Source: Ignavibacteriota bacterium
Lineage (GTDB): Bacteria; Bacteroidota; Ignavibacteria; UBA10030; SZUA-254
Direction: 5' to 3'
Length of the DNA stretch: 64,000 nucleotides
Assembly (NCBI GenBank): GCA_025358305.1
Contig: JANYJZ010000027.1
Location: 1-64,000 of the forward strand
Shown: positions 53,051-59,303 of the stretch, one piece after another
Layout of the letters: every line of letters starts with the position of its first letter
Numbering within the stretch: the stretch's first letter is position 1
Made by a program: the position numbers and the translations under genes
The notes under the pieces: generated by a model
What the model was told of the DNA's origin: nothing
Databases searched by the model: none
Seen by the model: only the letters and a program-made list of their open reading frames with translations

Positions 53051-53893
53051 TTGGGCGGCGATGTTTCTTTTAGCAGGGGAGTCCGGGATGACTCGACCGC
53101 GGTCCGATTCACGCGGGCGACGGCGCTTGCGGTCGACCTCTTCGGCAATGTCTTCGTCCTCGACGGAGGCGCGAGCGAACTCGTAAAGCTCGACGCGGCA
53201 GGCGCGCGGCTCCGTGCGACGGGGGGGTTCGGCTGGAAGGAAGGAGCCATGGACCAGCCTCGGGATCTCTCCGCATCGAACGGCCTCGATATCTACGTCG
53301 CGGATTACGGGAACCACCGGATCCTTCACTTTGACCGCGATCTCAATCTCCAGACGGCGACCGCAACTTCCTCCGATGCCGATGCTTCGCCGCTTTGGTT
53401 CGGCTACCCGCGGAGCGTCGCAACGACGCGCTTCGGAGAGCTCTTCGTTGCCGACGCAGAGAACAACCGCATTCTCTCGTTTGCGCCTGAGTCCCGGGAA
53501 GGGAAGCCGTTCGGCGATCTTCACGGAGGAAAGGGATCTCTCTCGTCGCCGCAGCGTATCCGCATCTCTGAGTCGGACGAAGTGTTCGTCCAAGATTCTG
53601 GGCGCGTGGTCCAGTACGACATCTTCGGGAATTATGTTCGGACGTATGACAAGGATCTGTTCCCCGGGATGCGTACATTTGCGCTTGATGACAAAAATCT
53701 TTATGTTCTTGACAGTTGCAGGATCATCGCGGTGGGTGAGGGAGGAGCCATCCGGTCCCAATGGGCTCTTGAGCAGTTCAAGGAAGGTCCGGCGTGCGAC
53801 TCGGTCGTCGATTTTCAGATCCACAAAGGAACGCTCTATCTGCTGACGCGGCGGGCGTTATGGATACGCCCCCTTCCGCGCACTGGAGAGTAA
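53051..53893 (+). CDS. NHL-repeat propeller protein
   Basis: Protein of about 280 residues made of NHL-type beta-propeller repeats: ALAVDLFGNVFVLDGGASEL, PRDLSASNGLDIYVADYGNH, PRSVATTRFGELFVADAENN. Such propellers bind proteins or ligands. The first usable start codon is TTG at 53051. The same frame, however, is open back to 53009, directly after the PorV stop, and encodes a hydrophobic stretch (VRALLIAALFLGG) that looks like a signal peptide but has no ATG, GTG or TTG before it. The protein may thus be exported from a rare start codon. It ends module 2, as a propeller lipoprotein ends module 1. Role inferred only. Confidence 0.7.
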   Translation: MGGDVSFSRGVRDDSTAVRFTRATALAVDLFGNVFVLDGGASELVKLDAAGARLRATGGFGWKEGAMDQPRDLSASNGLDIYVADYGNHRILHFDRDLNLQTATATSSDADASPLWFGYPRSVATTRFGELFVADAENNRILSFAPESREGKPFGDLHGGKGSLSSPQRIRISESDEVFVQDSGRVVQYDIFGNYVRTYDKDLFPGMRTFALDDKNLYVLDSCRIIAVGEGGAIRSQWALEQFKEGPACDSVVDFQIHKGTLYLLTRRALWIRPLPRTGE

Positions 53894-54406: not shown

Positions 54407-54475
54407 TCATGGTCGTCAAGACCAGGTTGTACCGTACACGTAACACGTTTGATCATAGTTGACAAAGATGAAGGC

Positions 54476-54670
54476 GAGAGCCTTCGAGGGAATTCCGTGA
54501 TTCGCTTCGGCGGAAAACCGGAAGCTGCCCCGCAACTGTAAATCCGTCCCGCATTTTTTGAGTTCTTCAAGCGGGGTCATTCTGCAATGATACGTCACTG
54601 TTCCTGTAGCAAGGGATGGGAAGACGGCAGGATGTTGGATGAGCCAGGAGACCGATCTGCGTCATGACCT
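54476..54670 (+). promoter_or_regulatory. Cobalamin (B12) riboswitch
   Basis: About 190 bases with the AdoCbl riboswitch elements in order: GAGGGAATTCCGTGA, GGAAGCTGCCCCGCAACTGT, the long variable arm, GTCACTGTT, GGGAAGACGGCAGGATG and the B12 box AGCCAGGAGACCGATCTGC at 54642-54660. It precedes a BtuB-type TonB receptor gene, the usual target. Cobalamin binding should repress expression through the hairpin at 54728-54760. Confidence 0.95.
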
Positions 54671-54727
54671 TTATAAAACCTTCGCGGGAAGGGTGAGGTG
54701 TGTCGCACGATTTGTGTGTCATATACC

Positions 54728-54760
54728 CCCCATCCTCGCTTCTGAAGATGGGGATTTTTT
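54728..54760 (+). terminator. Riboswitch-controlled hairpin abutting the btuB start
   Basis: Stem CCCCATC (54728-54734) with GATGGGG (54747-54753), followed by ATTTTTT that runs directly into the ATG at 54761. The GGGG of the hairpin is also the only ribosome-binding-like element, so the structure may act on transcription, translation or both. Confidence 0.7.
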
Positions 54761-56776
54761 ATGCTCCAACGGATCTTTCAGGCCTCGATCGTGCTGCTTG
54801 CGCTGCAGGGAATGCTCCCTGCCTGCGCACTCGCACAGTCCGCCGCGGGAGACAGCCTGCGCCCGTTTCCCCTCGAAGAGATCGTCATAACCTCGACACG
54901 GCTGAACACTCCCGCAGGCCGCGTGCCGATGAGAACATCCGTCATCACGCGCGTAGCGATCGGAGAAGGGAACGGGACGACGCTCGGGGATGCGCTGAGA
55001 CCCATTCCGGGGCTCGTCGTTCGGGAGTACGGGGGTGGAGGCGGCATTCAAACACTTTCGTTCCGGGGCGGAAGCTCCGAGCAGTCGCTCATCCTTGTCG
55101 ACGGTGTACCGGTCGCCGCCCTCGAGACCGGTGTCATCGACCTGCGGATGTTGCCGCTGGAGGAGGTAGAATCGATCGAGGTCGTCCGAGGCGGGATGTC
55201 CTCGCTCTACGGCTCGAACGCCATGGGAGGGATGGTCAACCTGAAGACCGTACCGATGTCGTCCGCGTCGGTCCTCCGGGTGCGCGGATCGGCCGGTTCG
55301 TTTGGGACGAGCGGGATCGCCGCGTCGTCCAGAGTCGCGATGGCCGGGTTCGTTCTTTCCGGAGGGTTCCAGAGAGATCGAAGCACCGGCGAATTTCCTG
55401 TCAATTCCCCGACAGGAGGCGCAGCCCTTTCCGGCGTCCGGGAAGACAACGATTTTCGCTCGGATCATCTGTTTCTGAGAGGCGATTGGGCGTCGGCGAA
55501 TGCCGACCGGACGTCGCTTGACGTCAGCGCGACACAGTGCGACAGGGGATCGCCCGGTCCGCTTGTGGGCATTGCGCAGCAGGGAGATGGCCGCCAGTCG
55601 GATGCAGCATACCGCGCAACAGGTTCCATCGAACGGCGCATCGCGTCTGCATTATCGCTGACCTGCACGGCCAGTATCCAGCGTGCCGACGAGCATTATG
55701 CCGATGCAACGGGCGTGTTTCGCGGGGACAACTATTACCGCAACGCGGTTGCGGCGATCTCGCCGCTTCTGCGTTATGAACCGGCTGCCCATTGGACGGC
55801 GGTGACGGGGTGGGACCTTGACGTGGCCGTTGCCGATGGAAACGCCCTTCCCGGGAGGGTCCAACGGTCCCATGGGGCTTGGTTCGCTGCGGCCGAGATC
55901 CGCACTGACACGCTCAACGCACGCCGGTCGGTGATAGCGCTCATGCCAGCACTCAGGTATGAGACATTCTCCTCCATGCACCCGATCTGGAATCCTCAAT
56001 TGGGCCTCCGCGCGATACTTGATCTTGGAGGATGCACGGCGACGGCCCACGCGTCGGCGGGGAGGAGTTTCCGCGTCCCGACGATGAACGAGCTCCACTA
56101 CTCGGGAGCAGGAGGATTCGGCAATCCGTCTCTCGTGCCCGAAGTGGCCGTAAGCGCCGATGCCGGCGTGACGATCGCCTCGGAACTCCTCGGGCATACG
56201 GAATGCGACGCGACATTCTACTCCATTCGGACGGACGACAGGATCTTCTGGCAGCCGGCGGGATCCGCGCTCATCTGGTCCCCTGTCAATATCGCGCGAA
56301 CGCTCTCTCGGGGGTTCGAGCTCGAAGCGACGTGGACTTCCCCGGGCGGCACAGCCGAAGTGCACGGTGCGTACGCGTTCGTGGACGCGCGGAACCGCTC
56401 CGGGACGGCCTCCGATAACCCGCTTTATGATCGTCAGTTGCCATACATCCCGCTGGAAACCGCCTCGATGTCCGCGCTGCTGCGGCTCCCGCTGAGCGGA
56501 ACGGGGGCCTTACGGATGCTCGCCGTACGCTTCGCTGATGCGTTCCTAGGCCAGCGGTACACCTCGGACGACAACAGCTCGTATCTGCAGGCGGGACACG
56601 TCCTCGGGGGCAATCTAACGCTCTCGTTCGCCCTGTTGGGGGGGACAGCCGGGATAAAGTATGAACTGAACAATCTGACCGGCGGAAACGTTGAGAGCAT
56701 CCCTGGGTACCCGATGCCCACGAGGAACCATCTCATTTCACTTACGATCGAACAACAATTGGGTAAGTCGTTATGA
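54761..56776 (+). CDS. btuB: BtuB-like TonB-dependent B12 receptor
   Basis: Outer-membrane receptor of 671 residues, small for a TonB receptor and the usual size of BtuB. Signal peptide, TonB box EEIVITSTR near residue 44, plug (about 55-170: LGDALRPIPGLVVREYGGGG, GSSEQSLILVDGVPVAALE, RGGMSSLYGSNAMGG) and barrel. It is preceded by a cobalamin riboswitch, which with the size and plug makes B12 or a corrinoid the likely substrate. Its stop overlaps the ATG of the BtuG-like gene (ATGA), so they are coupled. The start ATG sits directly after the terminator T-run. The chain ends in ISLTIEQQLGKSL. Confidence 0.9.
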   Translation: MLQRIFQASIVLLALQGMLPACALAQSAAGDSLRPFPLEEIVITSTRLNTPAGRVPMRTSVITRVAIGEGNGTTLGDALRPIPGLVVREYGGGGGIQTLSFRGGSSEQSLILVDGVPVAALETGVIDLRMLPLEEVESIEVVRGGMSSLYGSNAMGGMVNLKTVPMSSASVLRVRGSAGSFGTSGIAASSRVAMAGFVLSGGFQRDRSTGEFPVNSPTGGAALSGVREDNDFRSDHLFLRGDWASANADRTSLDVSATQCDRGSPGPLVGIAQQGDGRQSDAAYRATGSIERRIASALSLTCTASIQRADEHYADATGVFRGDNYYRNAVAAISPLLRYEPAAHWTAVTGWDLDVAVADGNALPGRVQRSHGAWFAAAEIRTDTLNARRSVIALMPALRYETFSSMHPIWNPQLGLRAILDLGGCTATAHASAGRSFRVPTMNELHYSGAGGFGNPSLVPEVAVSADAGVTIASELLGHTECDATFYSIRTDDRIFWQPAGSALIWSPVNIARTLSRGFELEATWTSPGGTAEVHGAYAFVDARNRSGTASDNPLYDRQLPYIPLETASMSALLRLPLSGTGALRMLAVRFADAFLGQRYTSDDNSSYLQAGHVLGGNLTLSFALLGGTAGIKYELNNLTGGNVESIPGYPMPTRNHLISLTIEQQLGKSL

Positions 56777-57786
56777 AACGTCTCAATGTCATCGTTTTCC
56801 TCGTTGCCAGTATTGCATTCGCAGGCTGCCGATTGACTCCGACCTCGCCGATCGTCCTTCCGCCGGGTTCGGCTCCGGGAGTGTACGTCTTGAACGAAGG
56901 AGGCTTTTCCGGAGGGGGTGGGGTCAGTTTTTACGATCTCCAGCGTGATTCGGTCTATCAGAACGCGGTCGCAGGATCCGACGGTTGGGTGTTCCCGAAT
57001 GACATGAAGATCATCGCCAACAAAGGATATGTCACCGTGAACGGAACGGACCGGATCTATGTCGTCGACATCGCGGGGCAGTCCATATTGAAGTCGATCA
57101 CGTTCCCCCATTTCTCCGGCCCCGAATTTATGGCCGCGTGGGGGGAGACGCTCTATGTCGCAAATTTCGACGGCTCGGTCTCCTTGGTAGATCTGCGTGC
57201 GGATACGCTTCTCGGGACCATCCCCGGGGTGGTGGGCTTTCCTGGGGGGATCGTTTGCGCAGCAGGGAAGGTCTTTGTGTCGGATATTGGGCTCTACCCA
57301 AAGATCGGGAATGTCGTCAAGGTCCTTCAACCTGGCTCGGTCTCCGTTCATGATTCTGTGACCGTCGAGAATGCTCCCGGTGCAATCGTCCAGCTCGGCA
57401 ACGGTGTTTTCGTGGTCTGTACGGGCACGTCCCGGATCTACCGTATCGACTCGGGGACGCTCGTTCTTTCAGACTCTCTGCAGCTCAGCGCTTACCCCAG
57501 CGACTGCGTGACGGACGGGGAATTCCTCTATGTCCTCGGATCGGATAGTGTGGCAAAGGTTGATGATAACCCGTTAACCCTTATAAATTCTGGTCTTATA
57601 CGCCGTGCTGTCGGAAGCTATTTCTATGCCCTGGGAATTGAGCGCCCGGCGAACGTCCTTTACGTTTCCAATATTCTTGCGGCCGGAGGGTCCGGAAGGG
57701 TGGAATCATACCGAACAGACGGGACCCTGCGCAGGGCCCCCTTTCCCGTGGGGGTATTCCCGGGAGCATTTGCATTTCGGCAGTGA
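56773..57786 (+). CDS. BtuG-like beta-propeller surface lipoprotein
   Basis: Lipoprotein of 337 residues with lipobox IAFAGC. The mature part begins with PGVYVLNEGGFSGGGGVSFY, the same form as the start of YncE/DUF5074-type propellers, and contains seven-bladed YVTN-like repeats (ILKSITFPHFSGPEFMAAWG, TLYVANFDGSVSLVDLRADT, VGFPGGIVCAAGKVFVSDIG). In Bacteroides the surface lipoprotein BtuG has this fold and captures B12 for BtuB with very high affinity. The position here, coupled to a riboswitch-controlled BtuB-like gene, makes it a BtuG analogue. Low sequence similarity should be expected. It ends with a TGA that is in frame with the next gene, nine bases before its GTG. Confidence 0.75.
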   Translation: MKRLNVIVFLVASIAFAGCRLTPTSPIVLPPGSAPGVYVLNEGGFSGGGGVSFYDLQRDSVYQNAVAGSDGWVFPNDMKIIANKGYVTVNGTDRIYVVDIAGQSILKSITFPHFSGPEFMAAWGETLYVANFDGSVSLVDLRADTLLGTIPGVVGFPGGIVCAAGKVFVSDIGLYPKIGNVVKVLQPGSVSVHDSVTVENAPGAIVQLGNGVFVVCTGTSRIYRIDSGTLVLSDSLQLSAYPSDCVTDGEFLYVLGSDSVAKVDDNPLTLINSGLIRRAVGSYFYALGIERPANVLYVSNILAAGGSGRVESYRTDGTLRRAPFPVGVFPGAFAFRQ

Positions 57787-57795
57787 GGGGGGCGC

Positions 57796-58704
57796 GTGCG
57801 CATCTGTTCCCTCCTGCCGAGTACGACGGAGATCTGCTTTGCCCTGGGTCTTTCGGACGAGATCGTCTGTGTGACGCACGAGTGCGATTACCCTTCGGAA
57901 GCCTTGAAAAAACCTCGCGTTACACGCAGCGCGATACCGTCCGACATTCCCGGCGCCGAGATCGACCGCCTCGTTCGGAGCCAGCTCTCCGGTGCGGGCA
58001 CGCTCTACCATCTTGATACGGAACTCTTGGCGCGCCTCGCACCTGACGTCATTTTGACGCAGGAGCTCTGCACCGTGTGCTCCATTTCGTACGAGACCGT
58101 GCTCCGAATCGCGCAGAACCTTCCATCTCTGCCTCAGGTCGTCAATATCGAGCCGAGGAGTTTGGAGGGGATATTGGAATCGATCCTCGCCGTCGGCCGC
58201 ATCGCCGGCGTTGTCGGCAAGGCGGAGAGCCTGGCAGCCTCTCTCAGAGACCGTATCGAGCGGGTCCGCGCACTGGCTGCGCCCCAGGAACCGAAGCGTG
58301 TCGTCTGCCTCGAGTGGGTTGACCCCCCGTTTTGCGGCGGCCATTGGATCCCGGAACTTGTGACGATCGCCGGCGGTATCGACGCGCTCGGCAGGCTCCA
58401 CGAGCCGTCGAAGCCAGTTGCTTGGAATCAAATAATTGAGTATAATCCTGATGTAATTGTCGTCATGTGTTGCGGTTTTACGGTGGAGCGGGGCATGGCG
58501 GAATGGCTCTCCCGAGGCCGGCCGTTCCTTCAACAATCGGGCGCGCGGATTCGACCAAGGGTCGCGGTCGTCGACGGTTCGTCGTTCTTCAGCCGACCCG
58601 GGCCGCGGATAGCAGAAAGCGTGGAACTACTCGCGTCCATCATTCACCCGGATCTCTTCCCCTATGAATATCCGGAGTCGGTTCTTCACGTTGCAGATCA
58701 ATGA
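57796..58704 (+). CDS. BtuF-like cobalamin-binding protein without signal peptide
   Basis: Protein of 302 residues of the helical-backbone metal/cobalamin-receptor family (COG0614-type). It starts MRICSLLPSTTEICFALGLS, the beginning of the binding domain itself, with no signal peptide. Two alpha/beta lobes joined by a long helix (PRSLEGILESILAVGRIAG) are present, together with VVCLEWVDPPFCGGHWIPEL. The start is GTG at 57796 with a GGGGGG ribosome binding site. The upstream stop TGA of the propeller gene is in the same frame, only four codons earlier, so there is no room for a signal sequence. It would therefore be cytoplasmic unless produced by readthrough as the tail of the lipoprotein. No btuC or btuD gene is in the window. 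Confidence 0.82.
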   Translation: MRICSLLPSTTEICFALGLSDEIVCVTHECDYPSEALKKPRVTRSAIPSDIPGAEIDRLVRSQLSGAGTLYHLDTELLARLAPDVILTQELCTVCSISYETVLRIAQNLPSLPQVVNIEPRSLEGILESILAVGRIAGVVGKAESLAASLRDRIERVRALAAPQEPKRVVCLEWVDPPFCGGHWIPELVTIAGGIDALGRLHEPSKPVAWNQIIEYNPDVIVVMCCGFTVERGMAEWLSRGRPFLQQSGARIRPRVAVVDGSSFFSRPGPRIAESVELLASIIHPDLFPYEYPESVLHVADQ

Positions 58705-58738
58705 ACATCGTCAAGCACGTTCACGAAAGGTCGTTACC

Positions 58739-59266
58739 ATGATCCGTTACTTCTTCACATTCACCCTTATTTTCCTAGCGGTGCTCTCACGCCTGGTTCC
58801 TCACCCGGTGAACGTCGCGCCGATAACGGCGCTTGCCCTCTTTGGGGGCGTCTATCTCGATAAAAAGCATACGTTCATCGTGCCGATCGCCGCGATGCTC
58901 ATCGCCGACTACTTCATCGGGTTCTACTCCGGCATCCTCTGGGTCTACGCTGCGTTCGCGCTCGTCGGAGTGCTGGGCCTTTGGCTTCGGGATCATTTAT
59001 CGGTCAGGAACACTATCGGGGCAAGTCTTGCCGGCTCCGTCACCTTTTTTATCGTTTCGAACTTTGGTACATGGATCTCCGGTCAAGTGGGCTACCCGTT
59101 GAACGTTGCGGGGCTCGTCGCATGTTACGCCGCAGCAGTTCCGTTCTTCAGAAATACGCTTGCTGGTGACATGGCATATGTGGCTGCGCTCTTCGGACTG
59201 TATGAACTTGCCGCCAGAGCGATCCCGTCGCTCGCCAGGCCCGAGCGGGTGGCGGACGCGGTCTGA
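58739..59266 (+). CDS. DUF6580 membrane protein, candidate corrinoid transporter component
   Basis: Membrane protein of 175 residues with five or six hydrophobic segments: YFFTFTLIFLAVLSRLV, NVAPITALALFGGVYLD, FIVPIAAMLIADYFIGFYSG, GILWVYAAFALVGVLGLWLR, SLAGSVTFFIVSNFGTWISG and AGLVACYAAAVPFFRNTLAG. It matches the DUF6580 family, whose size and layout resemble S components of ECF vitamin transporters. It is the last gene of the riboswitch-controlled set, so corrinoid transport across the inner membrane is a reasonable guess. No ECF ATPase or T component is nearby. ATG at 58739 follows AAAGGT; a longer frame begins inside the preceding gene and is unlikely. Confidence 0.75.
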   Translation: MIRYFFTFTLIFLAVLSRLVPHPVNVAPITALALFGGVYLDKKHTFIVPIAAMLIADYFIGFYSGILWVYAAFALVGVLGLWLRDHLSVRNTIGASLAGSVTFFIVSNFGTWISGQVGYPLNVAGLVACYAAAVPFFRNTLAGDMAYVAALFGLYELAARAIPSLARPERVADAV

Positions 59267-59273
59267 ATCGTTG

Positions 59274-59303
59274 AAAGCCGGCGCACATGCCGGCTTTCTC
59301 TTA
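59274..59303 (+). terminator. Terminator of the B12 operon
   Basis: Nine-base stem AAAGCCGGC/GCCGGCTTT with a six-base loop and a short T-rich run (TTTCTCTT). It starts eight bases after the DUF6580 stop and excludes an upstream start for carA. Confidence 0.8.

Follow-up and report, generated by a model that had tools for sequence, protein, structure and literature searches.

A cobalamin riboswitch operon from Ignavibacteria with DUF6580 as a probable solitary, S-component-like vitamin B12 permease in place of BtuCD

The window, which is the whole stretch of 64,000 nucleotides analyzed here, carries a cobalamin riboswitch followed by four genes that encode BtuB-like, BtuG-like, BtuF-like and DUF6580 proteins. 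All four lie on the forward strand with little or no spacing between them. The riboswitch aptamer (RF00174, positions 54449-54674, + strand) is a full-length match that scores 61.6 bits against a gathering threshold of 31.5 (E = 7.8e-13). It is the only cobalamin riboswitch in the 3.2 Mb genome, and it begins 27 bases ahead of position 54476, where a preliminary description of this locus had started. A hairpin, CCCCATC...GATGGGG with ATTTTTT after it (54728-54760, + strand), lies between the aptamer and the first gene. It was read directly from the sequence, had gone unmentioned in that description, and ends at the btuB-like start codon. The 101 bases around it (54675-54775) have a fold z-score of -2.7. 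The hairpin is a probable terminator/attenuator or SD-sequestering expression platform.

The first gene (54761-56776, + strand) encodes a TonB-dependent receptor with a signal peptide and matches to PF00593 and PF07715. The second (56773-57786, + strand) overlaps it by 4 bases and encodes a seven-bladed propeller lipoprotein of 337 residues with the lipobox FAGC and its lipid cysteine at Cys19. The third (57796-58704, + strand) encodes the BtuF-like protein (PF01497, E = 2.9e-17), and the fourth (58739-59266, + strand) a membrane protein of 175 residues that matches DUF6580 (PF20221) with an E value of 1.5e-50 and 172 bits against a gathering threshold of 27. The likely start of this last gene is the ATG at 58739 rather than 58664. 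The order given in the preliminary description, from riboswitch through TonB receptor, propeller lipoprotein and BtuF-like protein to DUF6580, is confirmed by RF00174, Pfam and structure matches, with corrected ends. A reading in which the propeller and the BtuF-like protein are fused was rejected; they are two separate genes. The terminator said to close the operon corresponds to a GC-rich inverted repeat, AAAGCCGGC...GCCGGCTTT (59274-59303, + strand), with an exact core for which 0.01 occurrences are expected by chance, but the T-tail after it is weak, and the terminator scan gave no hit there. Judged from its sequence, it is a possible terminator between the operon and carA, the next gene after DUF6580. 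Elsewhere in the window, an NHL-repeat protein, another propeller, is encoded just 5' of ssb and the riboswitch (53051-53893, + strand), and the left end has group II intron matches to RF02005 and RF00029 (62-328 and 1859-1948, + strand).

The receptor has a TonB-box-like motif, LEEIVITSTR, and its top PDB sequence matches are BtuB proteins, with BtuB1 of Bacteroides thetaiotaomicron first. Its best NCBIfam model is TIGR01779 (E = 2.7e-44), yet the score is under the curated cut-off. A sequence search with the propeller retrieves BtuG entries and their relatives with E values of 2e-9 and weaker, and when its AF2 model (pLDDT 88) was used with Foldseek, the first 16 rows were all BtuG structures. 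Z scores are 33.8-37.8 against BtuG chains, 35.0 against an archaeal YVTN propeller and about 31 against generic propellers; because the propeller fold is widely shared, the BtuG assignment depends on rank, sequence and operon together. On its model, then, the propeller is BtuG-like, and the lack of BtuG-like structure that would have counted against the earlier interpretation is not seen. The residues after the lipid cysteine read CRLTPTS and include no acidic residue. An acidic lipoprotein export signal is known in Bacteroides (PMC6143338), and its absence here leaves surface exposure of the lipoprotein putative.

In B. thetaiotaomicron, too, a riboswitch-controlled TonB receptor adjoins a seven-bladed lipoprotein (PMC10404256, PMC6143338). 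The present propeller differs from BtuG of that organism in having only about 20% identity and in having CRLTPTS where BtuG2 has CMKWD, and the two systems differ in host lineage and at the inner membrane, where DUF6580 stands instead of BtuCD. The outer-membrane part of the operon is a further member of the BtuB-BtuG type and is not new in kind. The earlier proposal of a BtuG-type system outside Bacteroides holds at the genus level; genomes that are Ignavibacteria-like or unclassified Bacteroidota encode the nearest named relatives of the operon's DUF6580. At one related locus (L053, 7186-8505, - strand) a BtuG-like propeller without a lipobox forms one protein with a C-terminal sorting domain for Por (type IX) secretion, suggesting surface anchoring by a route other than lipidation.

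The AF2 model of DUF6580 (pLDDT 95.3, pTM 0.88) is that of a helical membrane protein. The PDB structures ranked first and second against it are BtuM with cobalamin (Z 14.4, 157 aligned residues, 2.8-2.9 A). ECF S-components follow at Z 10.0-12.9, and all other structures are at 5.6 or below. As modeled, DUF6580 has the six-helix S-component fold. The lead of BtuM over ordinary S-components is only about 1.5 Z, too little for the fold alone to give B12 specificity, and since a DUF6580 sequence profile has no match in the PDB even at E 10, kinship with BtuM is based on fold only.

BtuM of Thiobacillus denitrificans (PDB 8ovv, 8c7p; PMC6072759) transports B12 as a solitary protein and can sustain growth that depends on B12 in E. 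coli. DUF6580 has in common with it the six-helix S-component fold, a size of about 20 kDa, and occurrence with BtuB in a genome that lacks BtuC and an ECF module. The two differ in that BtuM is found mainly in Proteobacteria, DUF6580 in Bacteroidota, Patescibacteria and Planctomycetes, and in that DUF6580 sometimes has a signal-less BtuF-like partner. They also differ in loop L3, where BtuM has an invariant and essential cobalt-ligand cysteine. The L3 of the DUF6580 model comprises residues 61-65, and position 63 is never Cys in 127 DUF6580 proteins; it is mostly His or Tyr, and otherwise Thr, Ser, Asn or Asp. Cys129, conserved in 102/127 proteins, was rejected as the counterpart of BtuM Cys80 because it sits in the last long helix and not in L3. 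A ligand swap is not argued either, as a single clade, of 6-7 rows, has lost His22 and gained His103-Trp104 together, which is too few events. The ECF S-components FolT, RibU, BioY and ThiT have the fold in common with DUF6580 (Z 10-13), but DUF6580 is solitary in a genome without EcfT. From its model, the inner-membrane part of the operon is most likely a new, sequence-unrelated variant of the BtuM kind of transporter.

Pfam searches of the host genome (a 42-contig assembly with a completeness estimate of 100%) gave no match to the FecCD permease family, to which BtuC belongs; the same search found matches in 13/14 control genomes. CbiQ/EcfT (PF02361) and CobS likewise had no match in this genome. 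Present are a cobalamin adenosyltransferase and several B12-binding domains, one of them in a MetH-sized frame of 1175 residues located 2.3 kb beyond the window. With B12 enzymes present and FecCD, EcfT and CobS absent, the cell appears to need imported B12 without having the known importers that were searched for. The genome content therefore supports the suggestion that DUF6580 stands in place of BtuCD.

The distribution of the two families was surveyed in 148 genomes of the same phylum, drawn from 34 families. DUF6580 is above the cut-off in 59 of these and strong FecCD matches are present in 96; seven further genomes with only weak FecCD matches were scored as lacking FecCD. DUF6580 occurs alone in 51 genomes and FecCD alone in 88, and one genome has neither. 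The 8 genomes with both, out of the 59 with DUF6580, count against replacement. Fisher's test for DUF6580 versus strong FecCD gives p = 6e-30, a value inflated by shared ancestry. The exclusion nonetheless recurs across many families: 17 families carry DUF6580 and 17 only FecCD, and two (f14 and f24) hold both states. Such near mutual exclusion is the pattern left where one inner-membrane B12 importer takes over from another. Outside the phylum, strong FecCD is found in 4/33 DUF6580 genomes, a figure that is not counted as a test because it has no DUF6580-negative comparison.

DUF6580 could be an ordinary ECF S-component served by an ECF module encoded far away, as its fold and the CbiQ/EcfT matches in 3/59 DUF6580 genomes would suggest. 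The other 56 lack EcfT, as does the genome of the present operon, and we regard this explanation as the least probable of those considered. Replacement of BtuCD by a solitary DUF6580 is the reading that we prefer. The preliminary description had placed this substitution in the operon under study, which stands, but it is not special to that operon: it extends to about half of the sampled families and also to Planctomycetes, Patescibacteria and others.

Cobalamin riboswitches are found in 145/148 genomes of the phylum, and 19 of 63 DUF6580 genes have an RF00174 match no more than 5 kb upstream on the same strand, where 0.05 would be expected. Four genomes have two DUF6580 copies, of which one belongs to a riboswitch operon and the other lies elsewhere: G069 (L036/L056), G077 (L032/L055), G126 (L040/L072) and G132 (L053/L054). 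In related loci the second copy adjoins, for example, YceI. These additional copies may be unregulated, or may act on a different substrate.

In a scan of species genomes, DUF6580 was detected in Ignavibacteria, Bacteroidales, Balneolaceae, Planctomycetes, Neomarinimicrobiota, Rokuibacteriota, Omnitrophota, Acidobacteriota and many Patescibacteria; many of the surveyed loci are from MAGs. A search of viral contigs gave no relative. Riboswitches near DUF6580 were sought by a regular-expression scan as a first look and then by cmscan on 26 loci. They are located directly 5' of DUF6580 in a Planctomycetaceae genome (L136), in Geofilum, in Lentimicrobium and in others. Five loci (L039, L046, L089, L092 and L094) have two tandem B12-controlled units, with one cobalamin riboswitch for DUF6580 itself and another between DUF6580 and BtuB. 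A histidine phosphatase (PF00300, a CobC-like candidate) directly follows DUF6580 in the riboswitch operon at L040 (5339-5944, - strand). When 127 DUF6580 proteins were placed in a tree, those linked to riboswitches were scattered, with at least 9 changes forced by well-supported branches, so linkage to B12 is probably family-wide rather than a property of one clade.

In Patescibacteria, DUF6580 adjoins a ribonucleotide reductase, a membrane-anchored DUF4430 protein and a cobalamin adenosyltransferase in varying combinations. Loci of this type are L090, L096, L097, L104, L105, L106, L111, L114, L115, L126 and L129. The ribonucleotide reductase is the adenosylcobalamin-dependent NrdJ in all four cases tested (TIGR02504, above cut-off); that of L105 carries an intein. 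Transcobalamin-like B12 binders have DUF4430 as their C-terminal domain (PMC4350170). At L096, a locus that also has a cobalamin riboswitch, the DUF4430 protein has no PDB sequence match, so a B12 role for it is based on Pfam domain identity only. The NrdJ-DUF4430-DUF6580-adenosyltransferase operon is a candidate minimal module for B12 uptake and use. These operons, together with the proximity of riboswitches, link DUF6580 strongly with B12 genes elsewhere and speak against the possibility that no such link exists.

Cobalamin riboswitches can also control cobalt transport. About half of the surveyed DUF6580 genes are not beside recognized B12 genes, and S-component folds carry many vitamins. 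These points would be consistent with transport by DUF6580 of some other riboswitch-controlled compound (cobinamide, cobalt or a lower-ligand base), with B12 entering by another importer. The mutual exclusion with FecCD, the Patescibacteria operons and the operon shared with BtuB, BtuG and BtuF-like genes point instead to the corrinoid itself, and the host genome lacks both a CobS that could make use of a precursor or base and a CbiQ partner for cobalt. Another substrate is accordingly unlikely, if the least improbable of the alternatives, and cobalamin remains the preferred one.

The best PDB match of the BtuF-like protein is a vitamin B12-binding protein. It starts with GTG, its N-terminus is a mature-like sequence, MRICSLLPSTTEI, and an in-frame TGA at 57784, 12 bases 5' of the start, leaves no room for a signal peptide. 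No signal peptide is present in this protein or in 10 aligned relatives that adjoin DUF6580 genes, all 11 having a mature-like N-terminus. The operon's protein is therefore not exportable by the usual route and is probably cytosolic. The domain reported earlier as BtuF-like does match PF01497, but it forms a separate gene and, lacking a signal peptide, is not a periplasmic binding protein. Cys30, Cys92, Cys95 and Cys226 are common to all 11 aligned proteins, and none of them is found in E. coli BtuF. BtuCDF of E. coli acts at the same pathway step and has PF01497 in common with the present protein, but here the BtuC family is absent, and the BtuF-like protein is unexported and has the four conserved cysteines.

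In four B12 operons, diphthamide synthase-like (PF01902) and Sir2 (PF02146) genes are located directly 3' of the DUF6580 and BtuF-like genes (L032, 6335-7066; L033, 6606-8022; L034, 4555-5238; L136, 8019-8699).

The PF01497 protein in the operon, and the occurrence of S-component-like folds in receptors as well (PMC11109136), could be explained if DUF6580 were an accessory or a sensor and the BtuF-like protein served an unrelated ABC permease in the classical fashion. This is very unlikely given that none of the 11 BtuF-like proteins has a signal peptide, that the genome has no FecCD permease, and that most DUF6580 loci have no adjoining BtuF-like gene. We favor DUF6580 as the permease, with the BtuF-like protein, as its sequence suggests, probably a cytosolic cobalamin acceptor. 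Whether that protein has a B12 role in the cytosol is perhaps evenly balanced, and that it makes transport directional is rather less likely. It might trap, and perhaps reduce or dealkylate, cobalamin arriving via DUF6580.

From the genes, the riboswitch, the folds, the absent FecCD, EcfT and CobS matches, and the linkage and exclusion statistics computed here, we infer, and consider quite probable, that DUF6580 acts as a solitary B12 permease of the S-component-like kind and takes the place of BtuCD in a complete import operon, which would be B12-repressed through this riboswitch and include the BtuF-like protein as cytosolic acceptor. By homology, the BtuG-like surface lipoprotein would capture cobalamin and pass it to the BtuB-like receptor, which would move it into the periplasm with TonB energy. 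Cobalamin would then diffuse in the periplasm, and DUF6580, judging from its fold, the genome content and the exclusion of FecCD, would bring it through the inner membrane with no ATPase module involved. The BtuF-like protein, which has no signal peptide, may accept and trap cobalamin in the cytosol, perhaps via its invariant cysteines, and may hand it to the adenosyltransferase and the B12 enzymes. High cytosolic B12 would, by homology, cause the riboswitch to shut the operon. It is conceivable, though we rather doubt it, that DUF6580 and the four-cysteine acceptor constitute a new kind of vitamin import, in which an ATP-free S-component permease is given its direction by a cytosolic protein that binds or dealkylates cobalamin and pulls it off at the inner face, on the membrane side opposite to that of E. 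coli BtuF.

A search of the open-access literature (subscription papers and preprints being outside its scope) found no paper that names DUF6580 or its function, and no paper on BtuG in Ignavibacteria. The DUF6580 family most likely transports B12 and takes over from BtuCD in about half of the phylum's sampled families, and probably beyond. A testable function can now be assigned to DUF6580, one that would supply, in about 40% of the phylum's sampled genomes, the inner-membrane step that was missing from B12 uptake. It would also provide a B12 entry route for Patescibacteria, whose NrdJ-based deoxynucleotide synthesis would depend on the entry of B12. DUF6580 would join BtuM as another family of solitary S-component-like B12 proteins, unrelated to it in sequence, and with two such families ATPase-free transport by solitary S-component-like proteins would become directly testable.
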